Shown here: one piece after another, positions 20,143 through 23,053 of the stretch
How positions within the stretch are numbered: the first letter of the stretch is position 1
Layout: every line of letters begins with the position of its first letter
Assembly: GCA_022508445.1 (NCBI GenBank)
Contig: JAFLVG010000002.1
Span: forward strand, 124,001-188,000
Reading direction: 5' to 3'
Length of the DNA stretch: 64,000 bases
DNA from: Clostridiales bacterium
GTDB lineage: Bacteria > Bacillota > Clostridia > Christensenellales > Pumilibacteraceae
The notes under the pieces: generated by a model
Told to the model about the DNA's origin: nothing
Seen by the model: the letters and a program-made list of their open reading frames with translations, nothing else
The model's database searches: none
Program-made: the position numbers and the translations under genes

Positions 20143-21048
20143 ATGGGACTGTTTTCCAAAATCAAAGCGGGACTGAAACGCACGAAAGAGGCGATTGCCT
20201 ATAAGCTGAATAAGCTGTTTACGGGCGGCGTCCTTACCGACGAATTCTACGACGAACTCGAAGAAACGCTGTTGACGTCCGATATCGGCGCTGAAACAAC
20301 CGAAAATATAATGGACAGGCTAAAAGACGAGATAGACAGACAGCACATACGCGATACGGCGAAGGTGCGCGACGTGCTTAAATCAATACTCGTCGAGCTT
20401 CTCGAAGAAAACGAATTGCCCGAATATAACTATCCGCTCGTCATCATGCTGTCGGGCGTGAACGGCGTCGGCAAAACAACGGCGATAGGCAAGCTCGCAA
20501 AAAAATTCAAGTCGCAAGGCAAATCGGTGACGATCGCCGCGGCAGACACGTTCAGAGCGGCCGCCGCAGACCAGCTCACCGTGTGGGCGGAGCGTGCCGG
20601 CGTTCGCATAATCAAGCACGCAGAGGGTGCAGATCCGGCGGCAGTTGTGTACGACGCGGCGCAAAGCGTAAAGAGCAAGAACGGCGACGTGCTGCTTATA
20701 GACACGGCAGGCAGACTCCACAACAAGAAAAACCTCATGGAGGAGCTCAAAAAGATTGCGCGCGTCGTAGGTCGTGAGCTACCTAATGCAACCGTGCTTA
20801 ACTACATTGTTCTCGACGCCACAACAGGACAGAACGCGATTTCGCAGGTCGATATTTTCAACGAAGCGATAGACATCGACGGAATAATACTCACAAAGCT
20901 CGACGGCACGGCAAAGGGCGGCGTGGTGCTTGCAATAGCTGGTGAGCTGTCCGTTCCCGTCGTGTACGTCGGCGTCGGTGAGGGCATTGACGACTTGGAG
21001 GATTTCGACGCGGACGATTTTGTGAACGGAATCATGGGCGACGAGTAA
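20143..21048 (+). CDS. ftsY: Signal recognition particle receptor FtsY
   Basis: A 301-residue SRP-receptor GTPase that docks SRP-ribosome complexes at the membrane. The N domain covers about residues 1-100. The G domain has GVNGVGKTT near residue 104, DTFRAAAADQL, DTAGRLHNKK and TKLDGTAKGG. It is short because the acidic A domain found in E. coli is absent; the N-terminus MGLFSKIKAGLKRTKE is the amphipathic membrane-binding helix of Gram-positive FtsY. It follows smc closely and is followed by a gene-free stretch and terminator, so ylxM-ffh is transcribed separately. Confidence 0.97.
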   Translation: MGLFSKIKAGLKRTKEAIAYKLNKLFTGGVLTDEFYDELEETLLTSDIGAETTENIMDRLKDEIDRQHIRDTAKVRDVLKSILVELLEENELPEYNYPLVIMLSGVNGVGKTTAIGKLAKKFKSQGKSVTIAAADTFRAAAADQLTVWAERAGVRIIKHAEGADPAAVVYDAAQSVKSKNGDVLLIDTAGRLHNKKNLMEELKKIARVVGRELPNATVLNYIVLDATTGQNAISQVDIFNEAIDIDGIILTKLDGTAKGGVVLAIAGELSVPVVYVGVGEGIDDLEDFDADDFVNGIMGDE

Positions 21049-21257
21049 ATTAAGTAATAGGTAAAGTGAGTAGAGAAGATATATGCGCGTTGCGCCGTGA
21101 ATGTGCGGATTGCTCGCATCGGTCGAAATGACTGATGATTTGGATTAAGCAATAACTTTGAGAACGGTGTTCAAGCAATTATTACCGCAAAGACATTATT
21201 CTGGTGTAACGTCATACAACCAATCACCGAAAACACACGACACGTAAAAATTTCTTG

Positions 21258-21290
21258 CCTACTTCTTTTTTATAAGAAGTAGGTTTTTTT
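21258..21290 (+). terminator. Terminator of the smc-ftsY unit
   Basis: Stem CCTACTTCTT/AAGAAGTAGG with a T/A loop and seven T. It ends 45 bases before the ylxM palindrome. In the rest of the gap (21049-21257) I see no gene; a check for SRP RNA core motifs (GGAAG, AGCAGCC) found none. Confidence 0.88.
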
Positions 21291-21311
21291 AAAAGAAGTA
21301 AGCAAAAACGC

Positions 21312-21340
21312 TTGCAATTAAGATAATAATATAGTATAAT
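21312..21340 (+). promoter_or_regulatory. Promoter of ylxM-ffh
   Basis: -35 TTGCAA (21312-21317), 17-base spacer, -10 TATAAT (21335-21340). The -10 overlaps the left arm of the palindrome at 21336-21377. Confidence 0.75.
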
Positions 21341-21377
21341 CACGGTGTAAAGTAATATTGCTTTACACCGTGATTAT
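21336..21377. promoter_or_regulatory. Perfect 17-bp palindrome over the ylxM -10 box and start codon
   Basis: Left arm 21336-21352 (ATAATCACGGTGTAAAG), 8-base spacer TAATATTG, right arm 21361-21377, exact reverse complement. The left arm contains five of the six -10 bases; the right arm ends in the A and T of the ylxM ATG. There is no T run after it, so it is not a terminator. It is probably an operator, with a possible RNA-level effect on transcripts that start upstream. Confidence 0.75.
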
Positions 21378-21702
21378 GAGCAAGGATCTTAACATAAGCA
21401 GATTATGCGACGTATACGGCGAACTGTTGACCGAGCATAGGCGCGAAGTGGTACGCGACTATTACGACTGCGATTTGTCGCTCGCGGAGATTGCGGAAAA
21501 CCTCGGCATAACAAGACAGGCCGCGCTGTGCAGTATCAAACAAGCGGAAAAGCAGTTGAACGAGTACGAAAGTAAGCTCGGCATTGCGGCAAAAACGGAC
21601 GCGCTCGAACGCGAGCTTAAAGAGATCTTGCAGTCTAATGAAAGCATGTCGAACATAAAAGCGCGATTGCAAACGATTATAGACGGTTTGCGACAGCAGT
21701 GA
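21376..21702 (+). CDS. ylxM: YlxM/p13-like helix-turn-helix protein
   Basis: A 108-residue protein of the YlxM family, small sigma-70 region-4-like helix-turn-helix proteins encoded beside ffh in Gram-positives and proposed to modulate SRP. The HTH is LSLAEIAENLGITRQAA near residues 34-50, and a charged helical C-terminus follows. The ATG at 21376 fits the family N-terminus (short lead, then LCDVYGELLTEHRR). A TTG six codons earlier is in frame but lies inside the palindrome spacer. Neither start has a Shine-Dalgarno. The stop is 7 bases before ffh. The palindrome over its promoter and start codon suggests autoregulation, which is an inference. Confidence 0.88.
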   Translation: MSKDLNISRLCDVYGELLTEHRREVVRDYYDCDLSLAEIAENLGITRQAALCSIKQAEKQLNEYESKLGIAAKTDALERELKEILQSNESMSNIKARLQTIIDGLRQQ

Positions 21703-21709
21703 GGTAGTT

Positions 21710-23053
21710 ATGGGATTATTCTCTTCACTTGCCGAAAAGCTCGGCAACGTATTTTCCAAAATAACGTCGCGCGGTAAGCTCACCGAAGGCGATATAAAAC
21801 AAGCAATGCGCGAGATACGCATAGCGCTTTTGGAGGCCGACGTCAACTACGCGGTAGTCAAGGATTTTGTCGCGCGCGTATCCGAAAAAGCGGTCGGCGA
21901 GCAGGTTTTAAAATCGCTCACGCCCGGCCAGCAGGTTGTCAAGATAGTAAACGACGAGCTCATCGCACTCATGGGCTCGACCAATTCCAAGCTCGAAGTC
22001 GCGCCCAAGCCGCCTACGGTTATCATGATGTGCGGACTTCAAGGCGCAGGCAAAACGACGTTTTGCGGCAAGCTCGGCGCATATCTCACAAAGCAAGGCA
22101 AAAAACCGATGTTTGCGGCGTGCGACGTGTACCGCCCTGCGGCTATTAACCAGCTCCAAGTAGTGGGCAAGCGCGTAAACATCCCCGTATTCGAGCAAGG
22201 CACGGGCAATCCCGTCAAGATCGCGGCGCACGCCGTAGAGGAAGCCGTAAAGCTCGGTTACGACACTGTTATCATCGATACCGCAGGTCGGCTCCACATC
22301 AACGAGCAGTTGATGAACGAGCTCAAAGAAATCAAGCAAAAAACCAATCCCGCGGAAATTCTCTTGACTGTCGACGCAATGACCGGTCAGGACGCGGTCA
22401 ACGTGGCAAAGACGTTCAACGACGAGCTCGACATCACCGGAGTAATTCTCACAAAGCTCGACGGCGACACGCGCGGCGGCGCGGCGCTTTCCATACGCTC
22501 GGTCACGGGCAAGCCGATTAAGTTCTGCGGCACGGGCGAAAAGACCGGCGATATCGAGCCGTTTTATCCCGACAGAATGGCGTCGCGAATACTCGGCATG
22601 GGCGACGTGCTTACGCTGATTGAAAAGGCGCAGGAAGCTGTTTCCGAAGAAGAACTCAAAAAAATGGAAAAGCGCATGCGCGAAAACAAATTCACGCTCG
22701 AAGACTTCTTGACGCAGTTCAAATCTATCGCCAAAATGGGCGACATAAACGAGGTCGTTGCGATGATTCCCGGCATGAGCCGCGCAAACGTCGATTCCAA
22801 ACAGATAGACGAGCGCATAAGCAAGTACAAATCGATAATCCTATCGATGACACCGCACGAGCGCACACACCCCGAGATAATCAAATCTTCGCGCAGAAAA
22901 CGCATAGCCGCAGGAAGCGGAACAAGCGTTCAGGAGGTCAATGCACTGTTAAAGCAGTACGACCAGACGCGTGAAATGATGAAGGCCGCAAGTTCGGGCA
23001 AAATGCCCATGCAACCGCAGAAAATCATACGCCAAAAGCGTAGATTCAGATAA
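21710..23053 (+). CDS. ffh: Signal recognition particle protein Ffh
   Basis: A 447-residue SRP54 GTPase that binds signal sequences of nascent membrane and secreted proteins. The NG domain has [15 protein letters not shown] near residues 106-120, [24 protein letters not shown] and [14 protein letters not shown]. The methionine-rich M domain runs from about 300 to the end and includes the RNA-binding segment [18 protein letters not shown]. The Lys/Arg-rich C-terminus [10 protein letters not shown] is typical. It is translated just after ylxM, and rpsP follows after 35 bases with its own strong Shine-Dalgarno. The SRP RNA gene was not found in this window. Confidence 0.97.

Follow-up and report, generated by a model that had tools for sequence, protein, structure and literature searches.

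The palindrome that spans the start of ylxM is, judging from sequence, very probably the operator of a local autorepressor, to which a dimer of YlxM would bind and repress the ylxM-ffh operon. It lies at positions 21336-21377 of the window, by which we mean the whole 64,000-nucleotide stretch of Clostridiales DNA that was analyzed. An earlier note on this DNA had described a perfect 17-bp palindrome, and this was confirmed. The two arms, at 21336-21352 (ATAATCACGGTGTAAAG) and 21361-21377 (CTTTACACCGTGATTAT), match at 17 of 17 positions across an 8-base spacer, and with the spacer included the palindrome pairs at 20 of 21 positions. As single-stranded RNA, its predicted folding energy was -28.2 kcal/mol (z = -8.2 compared to dinucleotide shuffles). 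The left arm does hold most of the TATAAT box, as stated in the note, with five of the six bases covered. The right arm, said to end in the ATG, does reach the start codon (21376-21378) but covers two of its three bases and ends on T. However, by counting the -10 box and the start codon among the elements of the palindrome, the note put its emphasis in the wrong place. What is conserved is a 7-8-7 core, TGTAAAG-N8-CTTTACA, a 22-bp unit at 21346-21367, which lies inside the 17-bp arms just past the -10 box; the full palindrome is this core plus symmetric flanks that are specific to the lineage or the species and vary in length within the genus. The core, a 12/12 match to the operator pattern, consists of the left half-site TGTAAAG on the plus strand (21346-21352; CTTTACA on the minus strand), an AT-rich 8-bp spacer (TAATATTG, 21353-21360) whose sequence is hardly conserved, and the right half-site CTTTACA on the plus strand (21361-21367), i.e., a C followed by the -35-like hexamer TTTACA. 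Compared to what the window alone shows, this unit is narrower and occurs far more widely.

A consensus scan placed the ylxM promoter on the plus strand, with a -35 box, TTGCAA, at 21312-21317 and, at 17-bp spacing, a -10 box, TATAAT, at 21335-21340; most upstream regions of the genus have (C/G)TTGCAA, or a sequence close to it, at the corresponding place. The core is separated from the -10 box by 5 nt, the modal gap in 174 promoters, so that the predicted (unmapped) transcription start, at about 21346-21348, falls within the left half-site. The ylxM gene (21376-21702, plus strand) encodes a 108-amino-acid helix-turn-helix (HTH) protein that matches the Pfam families UPF0122 and Sigma70_r4 and has its recognition helix starting at residue 47 (TRQAALCSIKQAE). 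The next gene is ffh (21710-23053, plus strand; TIGR00959, 622 bits), which lies directly 3′ of ylxM here as in 113 of the 119 loci tested and is presumably co-transcribed and co-repressed with it. No recognizable Shine-Dalgarno sequence was seen before the ylxM ATG, either in the window (21345-21378) or in the genus relatives (L010 to L027), and the short leader is mostly operator. On the other side, ftsY ends at 21048, leaving a 327-bp gap to ylxM, and an intrinsic terminator on the plus strand at 21257-21291 (11-bp stem and T-rich tail; -15.3 kcal/mol, z = -7.2) is predicted to isolate ylxM from upstream transcription. Two other features of this gap were apparent. First, in several genus relatives (e.g., L010, L011, and L019), ftsY ends within ∼100 bp of ylxM, the extra DNA of the window being that at 21049-21250. 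Second, 3′ of the terminator hairpin (21258-21283) there is a third copy of its arm, partly complementary, at 21291-21308; either copy could pair with the left arm (21252-21269), possibly reflecting an alternative fold or a decayed duplication.

Among the ways in which, according to the earlier note, the idea of an operator might fail were many copies of the palindrome as an ordinary repeat and no conservation in relatives, and neither was found. A search of the 1.78-Mb genome returned no second place with two facing arms at up to 3 mismatches, and the strict core pattern occurred at a single place, the ylxM site. With one full copy of the palindrome in the genome, a dispersed genomic repeat was rejected. 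As for relatives, all 19 of the 19 upstream regions from the genus carry the core. Order-wide, the strict pattern TGTAAAG-N6-10-CTTTACA was present in 135 of 297 genomes, mostly at one place each and nearly always with a spacer of 8, and the reversed pattern was rare. When the strict sites of 60 genomes were located, 37 were just 5′ of ylxM and 15 were elsewhere, and of 6 of the latter that were inspected, 4 were inside open reading frames. Strict cores were also noted in apparently noncoding DNA away from ylxM at two loci, L460 (G334) and L456 (G355), one of which adjoins an IclR-like gene; these may be extra targets or chance occurrences.

Conservation was scored in ∼300 distinct ylxM upstream regions using the pattern TGTNAAG-N8(or 7)-CTTNACA (12 positions, cutoff of at least 10), with lineages stated as their level of kinship to the window. 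The operator reached the cutoff in 287 of 299 regions, from genus to phylum, and was intact (12/12) in 208, while 12 regions were without it. The frequencies outside the genus were 115/120, 83/90, and 70/70 for the rest of the order, the class, and the phylum, respectively, and the spacer was 8 bp except in 21 regions, where it was 7 bp. The background was low: 4.65 of 299 regions reached the cutoff after dinucleotide shuffling, as did 13 of 1,767 real flanking segments of the same loci, none of which reached 11. In a second class (around G448), the operator was found in 22 of 30 loci, often as TGTAAAG-N8-CTTAACA. The gene itself was present in 284 of 297 genomes searched in the order, 111 of 118 in the class, 113 of 119 in the phylum, and 61 of 61 in the second class. 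In Streptococcus, none of 80 named loci (L374 to L453, gathered by a two-sequence YlxM query) had the operator, although ylxM was retained with a standard recognition helix. Because streptococci keep YlxM without the operator, DNA binding cannot be its sole role. Beyond the core, the palindrome is much less constant. Its arms in 18 genus relatives were 7 to 14 bp, mostly 11 bp, which means that the outermost bases reaching the -10 box and the ATG, i.e., the outer 6 bp of the arms, are peculiar to the species of the window.

The position of the operator relative to promoters followed two main patterns. In 224 regions, the site was over +1, behind another complete promoter, and in 88 regions it was over the -35, with its right half-site serving as the -35 box and a -10 box ∼17 nt further on; both kinds were present in 42 regions. 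Such positions, over +1 or -35, are typical of repressor operators. In 48 of the 299 regions (L123, L130, L134, L138, and L159, among others), there were two separate operators on one promoter, often one at the -35 and the other at +1, with centers mostly 44 to 55 bp apart, which suggests cooperative or looped repression.

The flanks raise the question of whether, in some lineages, the operator is also an intrinsic terminator that stops transcription coming from upstream (ftsY), which we consider a tentative possibility. A T run followed 52 of 107 extended stems compared to 9 of 180 others (not corrected for kinship), and in most relatives within the genus, a T-rich stretch separates the arm from the ATG. 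In the window, however, the palindrome has the stem of such a terminator and no T run, as the earlier note had observed, the bases after the right arm being GAGCAAGG, and a separate terminator stands at 21257-21291. Termination would in any case be an addition to the operator and not a replacement for it.

That the palindrome acts as RNA, either as a 5′ hairpin of the ylxM mRNA affecting stability and translation or as a read-through switch, appears improbable. Besides the stable fold and the T runs described above, what speaks for it is that four base pairs of the flank on each side were complementary above the expectation from column composition (110 of 190 for the first pair compared to 59 expected); such symmetry without sequence conservation hints at an added hairpin role in some lineages. 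However, in the 88 regions with the site over the -35, the site is upstream of the transcript, and where the predicted start lies within the left arm, a local mRNA would retain part of the stem only. The core is nearly invariant rather than compensated, and the commonest noncomplementary combinations of positions 4 and 19 at sites over +1 were C/T (20), A/G (18), and A/A (11), with 6 possible G-U pairs. No Rfam match reached its gathering score, the best ones in 20900-21800 of the window being far under it, and pairing in RNA would leave the covariation with the YlxM helix, described below, unexplained. The switch had been proposed in the earlier note, in which a read-through transcript hides the ATG and a local one leaves it open. 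The long form does fold in this way, but a good terminator lies upstream, and even within the genus there is no conservation of the arm bases needed to mask the ATG. A transcript starting at ∼21347 would indeed leave the ATG open, but with 8 bp of stem kept, not the ∼6 bp given there.

Returning to the operator as a target of YlxM, its occurrence follows ylxM. The operator was absent from all five ffh loci that lack a standard ylxM, four of which have no ylxM and one of which has a diverged one (P = 3e-7, not corrected for kinship). The operator tracks ylxM, not ffh. In the diverged locus, L242 (G493), the open reading frame before ffh is a strongly diverged YlxM-like protein (RPSRQAVHDTLQRAQAALEELESRLGFL) that was missed by the PF04297 search, and no operator was seen.

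The bases of the operator also vary together with residues of YlxM. In the first 190 sites, the fourth core base and its mirror base were analyzed separately, and for each the strongest association in YlxM was with residue 51, though for the fourth base it was tied by z with one C-terminal column. Predictions for residues 51, 52, and 56 were fixed beforehand and then tested on 100 new regions. In this held-out set, residue 51 ranked first for one half-site base and third for the mirror base, and the predictions linking residues 52 and 56 to flank bases (two of the three) were not confirmed, both residues hardly varying there. In the pooled set, R51 went with A/A half-sites in 63 of 70 cases and S51 with C/C in 16 of 17, and H51 and Y51 were mixed. 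Pagel tests were then run on a tree of YlxM from which column 51 had been excluded; the correction for kinship is imperfect because the tree rests on a short protein. First, for A/A at the third hexamer base, R51 ranked first of 269 residue traits, with a likelihood ratio of 49 compared to 27 for the next, and for C/C, the top four traits were R51, S51, K47, and R47. Second, when only sites over +1 were used, the half-site being free of constraint by sigma there, R51 was still first of 251 (likelihood ratio, 32). Third, for the outermost core base pair, i.e., the last hexamer base, K47 and R47 were first and second of 400 traits. Good examples of this are the many K47 proteins with CGTCAAG..CTTGACG or GGTCAAG..CTTGACC sites. 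P47 proteins had no intact 12/12 site, and in one family (f6: L033, L124, L128, L133, L142, L154, and L168), YlxM with P47 was seen together with a changed, overlapping tandem operator, e.g., AAAGGCAAAATACTTTAACAAGTAAAAATACTTTA. Because K47 and S51 often co-occur, the couplings of residues 47 and 51 are not fully independent.

These data make it very improbable that another transcription factor binds the operator and controls ylxM-ffh. The ∼15 strict sites away from ylxM in 60 genomes would fit such a factor, and the placing of YlxM on operator DNA is itself drawn from sequence comparison. However, the top residue traits for the operator bases lay in the recognition helix of YlxM in all three scans, the operator follows ylxM and not ffh, and there is practically one site per genome.

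The protein itself points to how YlxM may read the operator. YlxM of the window scored 76.2 bits against Pfam PF04297 (UPF0122; curated cutoff, 22.7) and 31.6 bits against Sigma70_r4 (cutoff, 24.1), and at 79.7 bits it was 0.3 short of the cutoff of 80 for NCBIfam NF045758, "YlxM family DNA-binding protein." Its AlphaFold2 model (pLDDT, 95.7) matched two UPF0122 crystal structures with a Z score of 13, sigma-A region 4 on -35 DNA (1ku7) with 9.2, and many sigma region 4 chains with 8 to 10 over 57 to 69 residues (VIA-align), i.e., the fold is shared. The half-site CTT(T/G)ACA resembles the -35 hexamer TTGACA, and GITRQAALCSI of YlxM aligns without gaps to GVTRERIRQIE of sigma-A from its own genome, which would put R47 and L51 of YlxM at the positions of R584 and R588 of sigma-70. 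In sigma-70, R588H and E585Q relax specificity at -33 and R584C at -31, whereas base contacts in the crystal structure are made by R584 and E585, not R588 (PMC2613000). The coupling of residue 51 to hexamer base 3 (-33) agrees with these genetics. That of residue 47 was strongest at hexamer base 6 (-30), one base off the sigma-70 contact at -31; this is because base 5 (-31) is nearly constant, leaving the coupling to be seen at base 6. The register and orientation appear to be those of sigma region 4 on two -35 elements that face each other. Compared to sigma-70 region 4 on -35 DNA (1ku7, 2h27, and 6jhe), YlxM shares the HTH fold and appears to share the positions in the recognition helix and the hexamer TT(G/T)ACA, but it is a stand-alone protein of 108 residues with two inverted hexamers at 7- or 8-bp spacing, apparently placed to block rather than start transcription.

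The resemblance does not make the half-sites -35 elements for RNA polymerase, as divergent or alternative promoters with no repressor site, which is hardly credible: CTTGACA half-sites do double as the -35 in most of the 88 regions with the site over that box, but the 224 sites over +1 stand behind another complete promoter, the left half varies with residue 51 of YlxM whereas the sigma-A region 4 helix of the genome is standard (VTRERIRQIEAKAL), and sigma would have no use for a fixed spacing of 7 or 8 bp between inverted hexamers. Proteins with R51, the residue that goes with TTTACA, were found at 4 of the 88 sites doubling as a -35 for sigma compared to 65 of the 224 over +1. An ordinary repeat, an RNA-only role, and a sigma-only role were all rejected as main explanations.

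The conservation at the promoter, the absence without a standard ylxM, the placement, and the coevolution together lend strong support to autorepression by YlxM, the simple hypothesis of the earlier note. They argue strongly that YlxM would bind the operator, and it probably does so as a dimer. The geometry of the operator and its overlap with +1 and -35 point to repression rather than activation. In the mechanism we propose, a YlxM dimer would set one sigma-70-region-4-like HTH on each half-site, TGT(A/C)AAG and CTT(T/G)ACA, which form an inverted pair of -35-like hexamers. Bound YlxM would cover the predicted transcription start in the window, or the -35 box in other lineages, and block RNA polymerase, so that the ylxM-ffh operon would be held at a level set by free YlxM. 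Systems in which a small HTH protein represses its own synthesis are already known, and as in small local autorepressors generally, an HTH protein is encoded here just 3′ of a conserved palindrome over its own promoter. Unlike in the usual cases, the operon here encodes a component of the protein-targeting machine, and its operator persists over an unusually wide bacterial range. A Foldseek search found a weak similarity to KorA of plasmid RP4 (2w7n and 5clv; TM score of ∼0.4 to 0.5, E value of 0.06 to 0.4). KorA is, like YlxM, a small regulator, of about 95 to 100 residues. It represses its own promoter at a palindrome, but it is plasmid borne, its operator differs, and it has many targets, whereas YlxM seems to have one site per genome.

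To our knowledge, YlxM is annotated only as a putative DNA-binding or signal recognition particle (SRP) accessory protein. In Bacillus subtilis, a ylxM promoter, P1, has been reported (PMC10100781). The literature searched, which covered YlxM, UPF0122, ffh autoregulation, and the core sequence, contained no operator or DNA target of YlxM and no description of an SRP accessory protein of the sigma-region-4 type that acts at inverted -35-like half-sites across a deep range of bacteria. The YlxM of Streptococcus mutans, an SRP accessory protein of the same family (UPF0122, PF04297) with the same gene order, ylxM-ffh, as the window, binds Ffh and SRP RNA and modulates GTP hydrolysis, according to a passage in PMC8546722, which cites Williams 2014. 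Binding to Ffh and SRP RNA is known there only, and the 80 streptococcal loci are without the operator. Because the operator result can be combined with this binding, YlxM may be two faced, although this is a speculative proposal: bound to Ffh and SRP RNA it would serve targeting, and free it would repress ylxM-ffh, such that the cell would gauge its stock of SRP by titration. The weakest step is that binding of YlxM to SRP would change the pool of free YlxM.

Several consequences would follow. First, a defined operator and named residue-base pairs make the putative DNA binding of YlxM directly addressable. Second, the proposed circuit would be the first candidate for regulation of ylxM-ffh found in the literature searched, and a case in which a sigma-factor-like domain acts by itself as a repressor, with copies of a -35-like sequence as its target. 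Third, the couplings of residues 51 and 47 may provide a natural specificity series for region-4-type helices. Finally, if the titration proposal is true, YlxM would be an SRP sensor derived from sigma region 4, whose DNA binding was lost in streptococci.
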